From contig NZ_HE978575.1 of assembly GCF_000311845.1 (NCBI RefSeq), positions 591,321 to 655,320 of the forward strand: a stretch of DNA of 64,000 nucleotides. Reading direction: 5' to 3'. Position 1 is the first letter of the stretch. Each line of letters opens with the position of its first letter. This document shows, piece by piece, positions 24,761 through 30,590 of this stretch. This DNA comes from Enorma massiliensis phI (GTDB taxonomy: Bacteria; Actinomycetota; Coriobacteriia; Coriobacteriales; Coriobacteriaceae). A model generated the notes under the pieces. The model ran no database searches. It had not been told where the DNA came from and saw only the letters and a list, made by a program, of their open reading frames with translations. A program made the translations under genes and the position numbers.

Positions 24761-24886
24761 ATGAACCGCATAGCACACGTGCGGCGGTCGCTCTATAGCG
24801 GCCCTCGCGCCCTTCATCTTCATCCGCTTCGCCGCTTGCCCCAGCGCATCGTTGCCCGGGCGGCATGCGATGTTTGGACGAGGTGA
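24761..24886 (+). CDS. Arg-rich 41-residue upstream ORF
   Basis: ATG 24761 is preceded by AAGGA eight bases upstream and the ORF ends with TGA at 24886, overlapping the ATG 24865 start of the next gene and six bases before its alternative GTG start at 24892. The peptide has eleven Arg and no recognised motif. It may be a leader ORF that couples translation into the recJ-type gene, or it may be chance in a GC-rich sequence. Confidence 0.25.
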   Translation: MNRIAHVRRSLYSGPRALHLHPLRRLPQRIVARAACDVWTR

Positions 24887-27800
24887 TCGCTGTGGCATCG
24901 CTTACCACCACGCATCGCTGGGTCGTCGCCCACCAGGATCCGCGCCTCGCCGACGAGCTCTCCTGCGGGCTCGGTATCGCCCCGCTCGTGGCGCGCATCA
25001 TGGTCGCGCACGGCATCTCGTCGGTCGAAGAGGGCCGGCGCTTCCTCACGCCTTCTCTTGAGCGCGACTGGGCGGATCCCCTCGTTATTCCCGGCATGGC
25101 CGAGGTGGCCGACCGCGTCGAGCGCGCCATCCGGGAAGAGGAGGTCATCGCGGTCTTCGGTGATTTCGATGTCGACGGCATTACCTCGACGTGCCTGCTC
25201 ACCGAGGCGCTCCGTGCGCTCGGGGCGAAGGTTCATCCCTTCATCCCGCACCGCTTCGACGAGGGGTATGGCTTGAGCGAGGTGGCCCTTGAGCGCGTGA
25301 TCGATGCCTGCCATCCATCGCTTGTCGTGACGGTGGATAACGGCATCGCCGCGAAGAACGAGGTCGCCTTCTTGCAGGAGCGCGGCATAGACCTCGTGGT
25401 GACCGACCATCATGAGCCCTCGGACATGGTGCCCGAGGGTGTGCCGCTCACCGACCCCAAACTCGATTCCTACGGTCCCTCGCATGAGCTTGCGGGCGCC
25501 GGCGTCGCGCTCAAGCTCGTGCAGGTGCTGGGCGGCCGCTTGGGCCGGCCAGACCTGTGGCACGGCCTGCTCGAGGTGGCCGCGCTCGGAACTGTTTCTG
25601 ACATGATGACGCTCACCCCCGAGAACCGCGCGCTCGTGGCCGCGGGCATCGACCAGATGCGCAACACGACGCGCCCGGGGTATGTGGCGCTCGCCAGCAT
25701 GAGCAAGACGGACCTCTCCACGGTCACCGCCGACTCGCTCTCGTTCTCTCTCATACCGCGTCTTAACGCCGCCGGGCGCATGGCGGACCCCACGCTCGCG
25801 CTCGACTTGCTGCTCGCGCGCGATCCCATCGAGGCCGGGCGCCTCGCAGCCGAGCTCGAAGAGATCAACCAGGAACGGCGGTCCATCGAGGCAGCCCTTG
25901 CCGACGAGGCATTCGAGCGCGTTGAGAGCACCTATGCCGGCGGCCGCGTGGTGGTCGTGGGGGGAGAGGGCTGGCACGAGGGCGTGAAGGGCATCGTGGC
26001 GAGCCGTATCGTCAACCGCTACCATGTGCCGGCGCTCCTCTTCTCGATCGAGGACGGCGTTGCGCGCGGGTCTGGCCGCTCGGTGGGCACGGTCAACCTC
26101 TTCGAGGCCGTTGAGCGCTGCTCCGATTTGCTCACCCGCTTTGGCGGGCATGCGGGCGCCGTGGGCGTGACGCTTCCCGCCGACCGGCTGGACGATCTCC
26201 GCGACCGGCTCGACGCTGTGCTCTCGGAGCTCCCGTCCGAGGCCTTCGAGGACACGGGCGAGATCGCCACGACGGTGCGCCTTTCGGAGCTCGATATCGA
26301 GACGATCGAGCAAGTTTCGCTTCTCGAGCCCTTCGGCCAGGGCAACAAGGTGCCGCTCCTTGCAGCAACGGGTGTGACCATGGCCGATCGCTTCTGCGTG
26401 GGAAAAACCGGCGACCATATGCGCTTCACGGCGACAGATGGTGCTGCGAGCGTGGCGGCGATCATGTTCCGCGTCCCCGAGATCGATACCGTGTGCGCCT
26501 GCGATTCGGTGGTCGACCTCGTGTTCGAGGCGGTTGCCGAGCATTGGCAGGGTCGGGTGAAGCCCAAGCTCATGGTGAAGGATATTCTCTGCCACGCGCC
26601 GGGCGATGCCGATGCACGGGCCCAGGCGAGCACGGATCCAGCCCGCGATTCTTCGTCGGAGGCAACGCCGAAGAAGGAACCATCCGGCATGGAGGCCTCT
26701 ACCGCCCGGCAAGGCGCCGCGCGCCGCGCCCTTCTTGCACAGCTGCCCTATGATGAGCTCACGCGCTCGCTCCTGCACGCCTTTATCGGGGCCTCTGCGC
26801 CGCACCGCGCCCAGAGCGATGCGCTTGAGGCGCTCGGGCAAGGCATGAACACGCTCGCTGTCATGGGCACGGGACGGGGGAAGTCGCTCATCTTCCAGGT
26901 GCATGCCGTCCGCGAGGCGGTGGTCAACCGCCGTGCAAGCGTGCTCGTGTACCCGCTTCGCGCGCTCGTGGCCGATCAAGCCTTCCACCTCATCGCAGCC
27001 TGCACCGCCCTCGGCGTTCGCGCGGCGGTGCTCACGGGAGAGTCGCTCCAGCCCGCGCGCGACCGAGCGTTCGCCGAGCTCGCGGCTGGATCGCTCGACA
27101 TCGTGCTCACCACGCCGGAGTTTCTCGCCATCCACGCGGAGCGTTTCGCCCAGTCTGGGCGCGTGGGCTTCGTCGTGGTGGACGAAGCGCATCATGCCGC
27201 CCGGGCTAGGTCGGGCGAGCGGAGCGTATACCTTGAGCTTCCGCATGTGCTCGAGCGTCTGGGCAGCCCGACGGTCCTTGCCGTGACCGCGACGGCCGAT
27301 GCTCGCGCAGCGGACGAGATTTGCCGGCTTTTTGATACCAGTCGTGTGGTCGTTGATAAGACCATCCGTGAGAACCTCGAGCTCGAGGACGACCGCGACC
27401 TCTCGGCCCGCGAGAACCGCCTCGTTTCCATCGTGGCGGCGGGGGAGAAGACCGTGGTCTATGTCAACTCGCGTGACCAAGCGGCCCAGCTCGCGCGCAC
27501 GCTTCGCAAACGCGTGCCCGAGCTCGCCCATGCCATCGCGTTCTACCATGCGGGCCTCTCGCGCGAGGACCGCACCCGCATCGAGGAGGCATTCCGCGCC
27601 GGCACGCTTGAGTGCATCGTGTCTACCTCGGCGTTCGGCGAGGGCGTGAACCTGCCCGACATCCGGCACGTGGTGCTCTACCACATGCCGTTCTCCGCTA
27701 CCGAGTTCAACCAGATGAGCGGCCGCGCAGGCCGTGACGGCGAGCCGGCTACCGTGCACCTGCTGTATTCCGCGCGCGACGCGCGCATCAACGAGCGCAT

Positions 27801-28209
27801 GCTCGATGCCGCGGCGCCCGAGCGCGAGGAGCTCGTGACCATCTACCGAGCGCTTCAGACCATGTGGCGGTCGCATCGCGGAAAGACGGGCGAGGAGAGC
27901 TTCTCGGCCACAGACCTCGACATCTCGAGCATGTGCCTCGCCATCGACGCGCGCACCCCGGTTGATGAGCGGGCCGTCAAGAGCGGCATCGCAATTTTCG
28001 AGGAGCTGGGTTTCGCCCGAGTCGAGGGCTTCGACGACGCGCGCCGCATCGAGATGAGCGAGAGGCCCGGGCACATGTCGCTCACGAGCTCGACGCGATA
28101 TCTCGAGGGGCTCCGCACGCGTCTCGCGTTTACAACATTCCGCGGCTGGGCGCTCGATGCCCCGGCTCATGATATGCTTGCACGAGTGAACCGTCCTATC
28201 ACGCCATAG
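24865..28209 (+). CDS. recJ: RecJ single-strand exonuclease fused to a RecQ-like helicase
   Basis: A 1114-residue two-part DNA repair enzyme. Residues ~1-580 are RecJ: DHH motifs DFDVDG (100-105), VVTVDNGIA, VVTDHHEP (D181-H183), then DHHA1 with RLNAAGRMADP, GWHEGVKGIVASR and RFGGHAGAVG, and an OB-type domain. Residues ~625-1000 are a superfamily 2 helicase of RecQ type: Walker A MGTGRGKS (~666), DEAHH (773-777), AVTATADARAADEICRLF, and motif VI MSGRAGRDGEP. Bacterial RecJ is usually ~570-800 residues and works with a separate RecQ; here 5'-3' nuclease and unwinding are in one chain. The start is ATG 24865 or GTG 24892. Confidence 0.93.
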   Translation: MRCLDEVIAVASLTTTHRWVVAHQDPRLADELSCGLGIAPLVARIMVAHGISSVEEGRRFLTPSLERDWADPLVIPGMAEVADRVERAIREEEVIAVFGDFDVDGITSTCLLTEALRALGAKVHPFIPHRFDEGYGLSEVALERVIDACHPSLVVTVDNGIAAKNEVAFLQERGIDLVVTDHHEPSDMVPEGVPLTDPKLDSYGPSHELAGAGVALKLVQVLGGRLGRPDLWHGLLEVAALGTVSDMMTLTPENRALVAAGIDQMRNTTRPGYVALASMSKTDLSTVTADSLSFSLIPRLNAAGRMADPTLALDLLLARDPIEAGRLAAELEEINQERRSIEAALADEAFERVESTYAGGRVVVVGGEGWHEGVKGIVASRIVNRYHVPALLFSIEDGVARGSGRSVGTVNLFEAVERCSDLLTRFGGHAGAVGVTLPADRLDDLRDRLDAVLSELPSEAFEDTGEIATTVRLSELDIETIEQVSLLEPFGQGNKVPLLAATGVTMADRFCVGKTGDHMRFTATDGAASVAAIMFRVPEIDTVCACDSVVDLVFEAVAEHWQGRVKPKLMVKDILCHAPGDADARAQASTDPARDSSSEATPKKEPSGMEASTARQGAARRALLAQLPYDELTRSLLHAFIGASAPHRAQSDALEALGQGMNTLAVMGTGRGKSLIFQVHAVREAVVNRRASVLVYPLRALVADQAFHLIAACTALGVRAAVLTGESLQPARDRAFAELAAGSLDIVLTTPEFLAIHAERFAQSGRVGFVVVDEAHHAARARSGERSVYLELPHVLERLGSPTVLAVTATADARAADEICRLFDTSRVVVDKTIRENLELEDDRDLSARENRLVSIVAAGEKTVVYVNSRDQAAQLARTLRKRVPELAHAIAFYHAGLSREDRTRIEEAFRAGTLECIVSTSAFGEGVNLPDIRHVVLYHMPFSATEFNQMSGRAGRDGEPATVHLLYSARDARINERMLDAAAPEREELVTIYRALQTMWRSHRGKTGEESFSATDLDISSMCLAIDARTPVDERAVKSGIAIFEELGFARVEGFDDARRIEMSERPGHMSLTSSTRYLEGLRTRLAFTTFRGWALDAPAHDMLARVNRPITP

Positions 28210-28235: not shown

Positions 28236-30590
28236 ATGGATGCTGCAACCCGCGCGGCGCACGACGCGTCGCTCACATCGTTCTCGCAGATGGTGCACTA
28301 CACCAAGGCGGACGACCTTCCGCAGGAGATCTGTGCCGACAACTACGACCGCTTAGCGCAGCTCTCCAGCAAGTACATGAGCCCCGAGGATTGCGCGAAG
28401 GTCGAGCACGCATACTGCTTCGCTGCGGAGAAGCATTCTGCCCAGAAGCGTCGCTCGGGAGAGCTCTATATCAACCATCCCGTTGAGGTCGCCATCATTC
28501 TGGCCGAGCTCAACATGGATTGCGACGTGGTCTGTGCGGCGCTCCTGCATGACACGGTCGAGGACACCGAGGTCTCGCTCGCCGACGTGACGAGCCTGTT
28601 CGGCGAGACGGTTGCCGGGCTCGTGGACGGCGTGACGAAGCTCACCAACATCGAGGTGAGCAGCATGGACGAGAAGCAGGCGCTCAACCTCCGCAAGATG
28701 TTCCTCGCCATGTCGCGCGACATCCGCGTCATCATCGTGAAGCTCGCCGACCGCCTGCACAACATGCGCACGCTTGCGGCGCTGCGCGAGGACCGCAGGC
28801 TCTTCAAGGCGCGCGAGACGATGGACGTGTATGCGCCGCTCGCCGACCGCCTGGGCATGAGCTCCATCAAGTGGGAGCTCGAGGACCTCTCCTTCTTCTA
28901 CCTCGAGCCCGAGGCGTATCAGCGTATCGCGCGCATGGTGGCCGAGAGCCGCGAGGTGCGCGAGCGCTACCTGGCGGAGACCATCAAGACGCTCACGGAC
29001 GAGCTCAAGCGCGTGGGGCTCCAGGGCTTCCAGATCAACGGGCGCTCCAAGCACTACTGGTCCATCTACCAGAAGATGAAGCGCAAGGGCAAGGAGTTCA
29101 GCGAGATCTACGACCTCGTGGCGCTGCGCGTGATCTGCCAGTCGGTGGGCGATTGCTACTCTGCGCTCGGTGCGGTCCACTCGCTCTGGCACCCCATGCC
29201 GGGGCGCTTCAAGGACTACATCGCCATGCCCAAGCTCAATAACTACCAGAGCCTGCATACGACGGTCATCGGCCCCACGGCGCGCCCGCTCGAGATCCAG
29301 ATCCGCACGTTCGAGATGCATGAGCAGGCGGAGTACGGCATCGCGGCGCACTGGCTCTACAAGAAGTCGGGCGGCTCGAGCGCGGCGAAGACGGCGGAGG
29401 CCCAGCGCCTGGACGACCAGATCAACATGCTCAAGCATTCGCTCGATTGGGCTGCTTCCGACGAGATCGAAGATCCCAAGGAGTTCTTGGATACCCTCAA
29501 GGTCGATCTTTTCGACCAGGAGATTTACGTCTTCACGCCCAAGGGCGACGTCATGAGCCTACGTGCCGGGGCAACCCCGCTCGATTTTGCCTACTCCGTT
29601 CACACCGAGGTAGGCAATCATTGCGTGGGTGCCAAGGTGAATGGCGTGGTGACGCCGCTCGCCCACGAGCTCGTCATGGGCGATCGGGTGGAGATCCTCA
29701 CCAACAAGAACGCGAAGCCTTCGCGCGACTGGCTGAACATCGTGAAGACGCCCTCGGCGCGTTCGAAGATCAAGCGTTACTTCACCGCCGTGACCAAAGA
29801 CGACGATGCTGCGGCCGGCCGCGACATCCTTTCCAAGGAGCTTCGCAAGCGCGGTTACGGCATCTCTACGGCCCGCTCTACCCGGGCGCTCCATACCGTG
29901 TGCGAGCAGCTCAACTATCGCCAGCTCGAAGACCTGTTTGCCGCCATCGGCTCGGGCAAGGTGGCCTGTCGCATGGTGGGGAACCGCGTGGAGCAGATTC
30001 TCGATCCCAAGCCGGAGGCCCCCGCAAAGACCGAAGCGGAGCAGCAGGCGGCGGCGCAGCCCGCGCGCGGTTCGAACCGCCGGCCGCGCGGCCCCAGGCG
30101 CGTTAGCTCGGGCGTCATCGTGAAGGGCGAATCGAGCGACGGCCTCCTCGTGCGCCTGGCCCATTGCTGCAACCCTGTGGCGGGCGACGACATCGTGGGC
30201 TTCATCACCCGCGGTCGCGGCGTCTCGGTGCACCGGGCGAATTGCCCCAACGTGAAGGGGCTCATGGAGCACCCGGAGCGCATGATCGAAGTTGGCTGGG
30301 ATACCCAGGCGGACGCGCTCTTCCAGGTGGAGATCGTGGTCGAGTGCCTCGACCGCATGGGGCTCTTGAAGGACGTGACGATCGCGATCGGCGATGCGGG
30401 GGCGAATATCCTTTCGGCGAGCACCTCGACTTCGCGCGATGGCATGGCGGTGCTGCGTTTCTTGGTCGAGATTTCCGATGCGAGCGGCCTTGATCCGTTG
30501 CTCGCGGCGATCAGCCAGGTCGAAAGCGTCTACGATGCGCGCCGTCTCATGCCTGGCGAGGGCGGCGCCACCATGAAACGCAGGAGCTGA
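28236..30590 (+). CDS. Bifunctional (p)ppGpp synthase/hydrolase RelA/SpoT
   Basis: A 784-residue stringent-response enzyme. The hydrolase HD domain is intact (HPVEVAIILAELNMDCDVVCAALLHDTVEDTE in outline; the HD dyad is HDTVEDTE), followed by the synthetase domain (QINGRSKHYWSIYQKMKRKGKEFSEIYDLVALRVI in outline, and FKDYIAMPKLNNYQSLHTTVIGP). Next come a TGS domain (VFTPKGDVMSLRAGATPLDFAY) and, after a low-complexity linker (~600-630), a zinc-finger/RIS segment (LAHCCNPVAGDDIVGFITRGRGVSVHR) and a C-terminal ACT domain. With both catalytic halves present it should make and degrade (p)ppGpp. It follows recJ directly, as in many Gram-positives. Confidence 0.96.
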   Translation: MDAATRAAHDASLTSFSQMVHYTKADDLPQEICADNYDRLAQLSSKYMSPEDCAKVEHAYCFAAEKHSAQKRRSGELYINHPVEVAIILAELNMDCDVVCAALLHDTVEDTEVSLADVTSLFGETVAGLVDGVTKLTNIEVSSMDEKQALNLRKMFLAMSRDIRVIIVKLADRLHNMRTLAALREDRRLFKARETMDVYAPLADRLGMSSIKWELEDLSFFYLEPEAYQRIARMVAESREVRERYLAETIKTLTDELKRVGLQGFQINGRSKHYWSIYQKMKRKGKEFSEIYDLVALRVICQSVGDCYSALGAVHSLWHPMPGRFKDYIAMPKLNNYQSLHTTVIGPTARPLEIQIRTFEMHEQAEYGIAAHWLYKKSGGSSAAKTAEAQRLDDQINMLKHSLDWAASDEIEDPKEFLDTLKVDLFDQEIYVFTPKGDVMSLRAGATPLDFAYSVHTEVGNHCVGAKVNGVVTPLAHELVMGDRVEILTNKNAKPSRDWLNIVKTPSARSKIKRYFTAVTKDDDAAAGRDILSKELRKRGYGISTARSTRALHTVCEQLNYRQLEDLFAAIGSGKVACRMVGNRVEQILDPKPEAPAKTEAEQQAAAQPARGSNRRPRGPRRVSSGVIVKGESSDGLLVRLAHCCNPVAGDDIVGFITRGRGVSVHRANCPNVKGLMEHPERMIEVGWDTQADALFQVEIVVECLDRMGLLKDVTIAIGDAGANILSASTSTSRDGMAVLRFLVEISDASGLDPLLAAISQVESVYDARRLMPGEGGATMKRRS

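Follow-up and report, generated by a model that had tools for sequence, protein, structure and literature searches.

We analysed a window of 64,000 nucleotides from the genome of Enorma massiliensis phI (contig NZ_HE978575.1, positions 591,321 to 655,320). One gene of this window (24865..28209; it and all features named below lie on the plus strand) encodes a RecJ nuclease and a RecQ-like helicase in one uninterrupted frame of 1114 amino acids (aa). Both enzymatic cores are complete, are conserved together and are under purifying selection. The reading we favor, with some reserve, is that the product would combine helicase and nuclease in one chain, with both activities coupled, and would resect the 5'-strand at breaks or gaps within a RecF-type pathway.

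Both enzymatic cores are complete and conserved in one frame

The N-terminal half is a RecJ. Pfam matches over cut-off were obtained for the DHH nuclease domain (25147..25593, residues 95-243), the DHHA1 domain (25945..26229, residues 361-455) and the RecJ OB domain, RecJ_OB (26272..26583, residues 470-573). The NCBIfam model for recJ, TIGR00644, scored 460.9 bits at a cut-off of 396.9, which assigns the protein to the RecJ family. The residues of the DHH motifs (D100, D102, D104, D158, D181, H182, H183 and D246) and GGH 427-429 of DHHA1 are invariant in all 56 aligned relatives. The solved RecJs of S. aureus (8y30), D. radiodurans (5f54-5f56) and T. thermophilus (2zxo) matched a structural model of the window protein with Z-scores of 45-49 and share the whole DHH-DHHA1-OB part with it. 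They have no helicase, whereas the window protein continues behind OB with an intact helicase core.

This core consists of lobe 1 (DEAD, 26806..27318, residues 648-818) and lobe 2 (Helicase_C, 27421..27741, residues 853-959), again over the Pfam cut-offs. In lobe 1, Q650, GKS 672-674, D773, E774, H776, A809 and T810, and in lobe 2, T921, A923-G927, Q950, G953, R954, G956 and R957 are identical in 56 of the 56 relatives. Variable motif positions are A775 (retained in 51), T808 (47), S922 (55) and D958 (54). Thus, the initial annotation of a complete RecJ with a complete helicase core of superfamily 2 (SF2) behind it in a single polypeptide was confirmed by one frame with five Pfam domains over their cut-offs, and its helicase part withstood a careful inspection of the functional motifs, the key residues being invariant. 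Against 25 relatives the RecJ core had a median ratio of nonsynonymous to synonymous substitution rates of 0.17. The values for the helicase lobes (0.22) and the C-terminal part (0.23) were slightly higher, and the linker, with 20 usable pairs, reached 0.48.

Other genomes contributed 27 related loci, and 25 of them match both halves at one place; L026 and L028, the two that do not, are pieces of a single genome on separate contigs. A script was applied to 108 loci, the window's own included, many of which had been chosen for an earlier match to both halves. In 106 of these the two halves share one open frame, the exceptions being L026 and L156. An assembly or frame artefact, in favor of which frame breaks in two genomes (G234, G297) could be quoted, has practically no probability left and is refuted by the single frame in 25/27 loci of independent genomes and in those 106/108.

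All 396 Coriobacteriia genomes match the window protein (P0001) somewhere, and for part of them the fused state was read. The distribution within the class, which the initial annotation had left to be checked, turned out to be wide. Of 48 genomes picked to represent the class families, 39 encode the two halves together in a frame of roughly 1000 aa or longer. As for the other nine, the gene is split over contigs in five (G182, G293, G302, G087, G131) and has frame breaks in G234 and G297; G385 and G392, among the same 48, permitted no judgement. Judged by these sequences, the RecJ of Coriobacteriia usually carries its own helicase in the same chain. The sampling for the fusion covered Actinomycetota (396 genomes, 38 of them in the class; threshold E 1e-45, two scored places in each genome). 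Among the matches listed, at least seven of the 358 genomes outside the class are fused (G400, G493, G512, G532, G609, G675, G707); they belong to families f34, f87 and f96.

The motor and its proposed work with RecJ

RecQ models were the best-scoring NCBIfam helicase models, yet they remained below cut-off (TIGR00614, 179.9 at 219.8; TIGR01389, 185.2 at 640.2). Both lobes matched a set of 17 stand-alone RecQs (hhalign 100%, E 5e-58, the E-values being pairwise, not database-wide). A model of the helicase part had a mean predicted local distance difference test (pLDDT) of 87, and its nearest folds were RecQ, WRN, BLM and RECQL4. Hence the helicase of the window protein has the two-lobed SF2 core of RecQ, complete in its motifs. 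Among the matches listed, the fused protein was always below the RecQ cut-off (best 216.8 vs 219.8). In a class sample of 149 genomes a RecQ-family match over cut-off was present in 86 and absent in 63, some of which are incomplete. Two such matches over cut-off were within long frames of 1195 aa (G013:C7:8034-9182) and 1173 aa (G010:C2:2097-3245).

The RecQ helicase works 3'-5' and the RecJ exonuclease 5'-3', and RecQ together with the single-stranded DNA-binding protein (SSB) lets RecJ resect DNA with 3'-overhangs, as stated in the available part of PMC4846377. Their cooperation in 5'-end resection, a premise of the initial annotation, is established on this basis; one study found no direct interaction of the Deinococcus RecJ and RecQ (PMC4846377, same part). 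In a Parabacteroides record (L204:1947-5597) separate recJ and recQ genes point the same way with 9 bp between them. In the fused protein the motor would run 3'-5' on the 3'-ended strand, given RecQ polarity, and would displace the 5'-ended strand to RecJ for 5'-3' digestion. Since motor and nuclease would act on opposite strands with opposite polarities, both halves would advance the same way along the duplex. Many relatives carry a HIRAN domain in front of the motor. There HIRAN would grip the 3'-end and load the motor; 3'-end binding by HIRAN and the polarities of RecQ and RecJ would fit the three modules into one machine. Because the window's lineage has no HIRAN, the motor may be loaded in another way there. 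The winged-helix-like C-terminal part would probably contact DNA or a partner.

RecBCD, AddAB and AdnAB likewise unite a motor with a nuclease for resection, as would the window protein. However, they use a UvrD-type helicase and a PD-(D/E)XK nuclease, and neither was detected in the window protein (Pfam, E 0.01). From the proposed counterpart of RecBCD and AddAB a functional likeness is left. Exonuclease and SF2 helicase are also joined in one chain in WRN (by the names of PDB entries) and in DinG with an exonuclease domain (PMC12345164, title and abstract start); both exonucleases are named 3'-5', in contrast to 5'-3' in RecJ.

Several observations weigh against a resection machine. First, no RQC, Zn-binding or HRDC domain was found in the window protein by Pfam. 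HRDC is absent in some RecQs. RecQs have an aromatic-rich loop with a tryptophan after motif II, as seen in the stand-alone RecQ L111; in the 56 fused sequences no tryptophan is present at positions 777-792, and a phenylalanine is present in eight. Unwinding by the fused helicase thus is not to be taken for granted. Plain RecQ membership was rejected because the score is below cut-off, the accessory domains are absent and the loop has no tryptophan. From the initial assignment as a RecQ-type helicase the core stands by profile and fold. We therefore use the term RecQ-like for a fused motor which has a complete SF2 core and resembles RecQ in this core; the fusion to RecJ itself sets it further apart from the family.

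Second, the window protein contains no HIRAN (PF08797; Pfam, E 0.01), and the full-length model had a predicted template modelling score (pTM) of 0.52 and a mean pLDDT of 83 with a linker predicted to be disordered. With such a linker and a pTM of 0.52 no fixed geometry is supported. Third, the genome encodes a full-length RecQ with Zn, RQC and HRDC domains and a two-gene AddAB-like pair in L122. The genes of the pair have frames of 1100 aa and 1236 aa, each with a PD-(D/E)XK match and the second also with a UvrD helicase. 'AddAB-like' is a descriptive label because the scores do not come near the cut-offs for AddA and AddB. The fusion accordingly is not the sole resection route of this genome, and the absence of recQ or addAB, contemplated in the initial annotation, does not apply. 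A fusion explained by loss of these genes was rejected for this genome. Fourth, in G007 (L156) RecJ ends after the OB domain without a helicase match nearby, and in G091 of the same genus (C20:23525-25201) RecJ also has no helicase; G003 and G005, again of this genus, keep the fusion. The clean absence of the module from G007 and G091 is a natural loss and shows that the motor is not always retained.

Two rival explanations were considered. The helicase half may mainly be a translocase which clears SSB or other proteins from single-stranded DNA, or a tether for RecJ processivity at gaps, with little unwinding. The missing RQC, the absence of a tryptophan between motifs II and III and the full RecQ in the same genome would agree with this. 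On the other hand, all core motor motifs are kept and the core is close to RecQ, properties which do not separate a translocase from a helicase. We regard this explanation as rather unlikely. Even less probable, in our view, are independent halves which are merely made together, e.g. with the motor in fork remodelling and RecJ in resection. The variable linker (22-244 aa in relatives, disordered in the window protein), the loss of the helicase without loss of RecJ in G007 and G091, and the service of the HLTF HIRAN in fork remodelling (available part of PMC11237066) would be in line with independent halves. Against this stand the retention of the fusion across the sampled class families and the known partnership of RecJ and RecQ (PMC4846377, in the part cited above).

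For the one-chain helicase-nuclease, the natural covalent link makes coupling and geometry testable in a single chain, and natural variants with HIRAN, without HIRAN and without helicase (G007, G091) can serve as controls. The bare RecJ-helicase architecture is probably listed in domain databases. Fusions of the same type had to be looked for: among the papers listed by searches of the open PMC literature (in one case 20 of 64), mostly outside of which are subscription papers and wholly outside preprints, no title or abstract start describes a RecJ-RecQ fusion. A RecJ with HIRAN, or a remnant helicase as a RecJ tail, is not described among the papers listed either, and those that name RecJ together with HIRAN seem, by title, to be chance hits. 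The available parts of PMC4846377, PMC4663267, PMC3307487 and PMC11237066 mention neither the architecture nor a remnant.

HIRAN in the linker of relatives

Two features go beyond the initial annotation, namely the HIRAN domain of many relatives and the related C-terminal domains of other RecJs. In the window protein OB domain and lobe 1 are connected by a linker of 74 aa (26581..26802; residues 581-610 predicted disordered), the site of HIRAN in many relatives. This linker has 151-244 aa in 36 of the 56 relatives and 22-114 aa in 20. HIRAN was detected in 33 of the 56 linkers (Pfam, E 0.01; best 8e-20), at least one match (L123, 17 bits) being under Pfam's own cut-off. An N..D..A pattern is present in 32/36 long linkers and in 0/20 short ones. 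HIRAN is located between OB and DEAD in L091 (G675), in L093-L096 and in many class members.

A HIRAN match in a frame of at least 600 aa was obtained in 79 of 149 class genomes: 74 outside the window's order, 5 in the order and 0 in the window's family. This count considered frame length, and other domains of those frames were no part of it. If the sample is that of the RecQ count, it comprises 81, 43 and 25 genomes, respectively, outside the order, in the order and in the window's family. On a tree, the label 'HIRAN', defined as a linker of more than 140 aa (36 rows), needed six changes among the fused rows. HIRAN has been lost or has decayed in the window's lineage and in some others. Elsewhere in the window's genome a stand-alone HIRAN frame of 141 aa exists (G000:C2:514716-514949).

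In human HLTF, HIRAN binds the 3'-OH end of single-stranded DNA and the enzyme translocates 3'-5' (PMC11237066, available part). HLTF, which combines HIRAN with a SNF2 translocase, and the HIRAN-bearing relatives of the window protein alike place HIRAN before an SF2 motor. Yet the HLTF motor is of a different SF2 family and the window protein itself is devoid of HIRAN.

The C-terminal part, related RecJ tails and the surroundings of the gene

Lobe 2 is followed by a helical and winged-helix-like part (27814..28206, residues 984-1114) which is shared with the tails of other RecJs. The region behind lobe 2 did not match the RecQ profile (hhalign 0.8%), and an assignment of the C-terminal part as RQC domain was unsupported by this value.

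Tails of 244-368 aa behind the OB domain are present in 38 RecJs of the Actinomycetota families f32, f42, f48, f54, f56, f65, f74 and f82 (L097-L108, L163, L165-L189). Eight of these actinobacterial RecJs were scanned and no significant Pfam domain was found in their tails. When 37 tails were combined in a profile (L099 of f32 excluded), it matched lobe 2 and winged helix of the fused helicase at 98.9%, or at 98.1% without f74. The controls, i.e. reversed copies, RecJ core and HIRAN, all gave 0.1%. Lobe 2 alone matched the tails before the winged helix at 95.9% (86.7% for the set without f74). Lobe 1 gave at most 1% and genuine RecQ at most 0.7%. The match to the fused lobe 2 but not to genuine RecQ indicated that the link of the tails is specific to the fused protein. 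Patterns of motif VI and Walker A are in none of the 38 tails. RecJ tails of f69 (66-69 aa) did not match (1.6%), and the fetched f33 and f40 RecJs have hardly any tail. By eye, several actinobacterial tails (L102-L106) start with a cysteine cluster which might bind metal.

RecJ tails of Bacillota, L197, L202 and L206 with PF10141 and the shorter L199, L200, L203 and L205, matched the C-terminal part at 93-97% (reversed controls below 1%). Lobe 2 alone did not match these tails (0.2-6.7%). In PF10141 (ssDNA-exonuc_C), the tail of Bacilli RecJ, the winged-helix part corresponds to the fused C-terminus (93% with three PF10141 sequences), yet a match to lobe 2 alone is missing and P0001 has no PF10141 match in Pfam at E 0.01. 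Alignment of the full model to S. aureus RecJ extended as far as residue 1082 of the model and residue 730 of the chain (Z 49.0, 633 residues); the root mean square deviation of 20.5 means that domain placement differs. The alignments with the D. radiodurans and T. thermophilus RecJs stop at or just after OB and thus showed no relation to their C-terminal domains, which is no evidence of absence. Among solved structures the actinobacterial-tail profile found no RecJ by sequence (best E 0.0052, a ribosomal protein).

In sequence, the actinobacterial tails look like a decayed helicase with lobe 1 gone and lobe 2 worn. Alternatively, a helicase was inserted before an old winged helix. This is less likely in Actinomycetota because lobe 2 is seen in their tails, but may hold for Bacillota. 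In a free RecJ-core tree (113 rows, quick method) the tail-bearing f74 RecJs group with the fused ones outside the class (SH-like approximate likelihood ratio test, SH-aLRT, 99), and three changes of helicase state are needed. However, when the 56 fused rows were all kept in one group, the tree scored higher by 9.4 log units, with a p of 0.584 in the approximately unbiased test (p-AU). Tentatively, and at somewhat less than even chances, we propose that RecJ, HIRAN and helicase formed an old single-chain machine for 5' resection, which survives in Coriobacteriia and a few neighbours. The C-terminal domain of other Actinomycetota RecJs, and perhaps PF10141 of Bacillota, would then be a burnt-out lobe 2 with its winged helix, retained to bind DNA or a partner. 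If true, this would explain where a RecJ domain of no assigned role comes from.

The start codon probably is GTG 24892. It is preceded by GAGG a few bases upstream and corresponds to residue 10, the position of the start in relatives (M10 in at least 90% of 26 sequences). The product therefore probably has 1105 aa rather than 1114. A rel-family (p)ppGpp gene (28236..30590) is directly downstream, outside the fusion. It is next to recJ in 26 of 27 related loci, the exception L026 being a piece which ends inside the gene, and it adjoins recJ in two Bacillota records too. By this conserved neighbour the window gene is the ordinary chromosomal, i.e. housekeeping, recJ of Coriobacteriia. Two further frames of the genome, 337 aa and 479 aa long, contain a DHH match.

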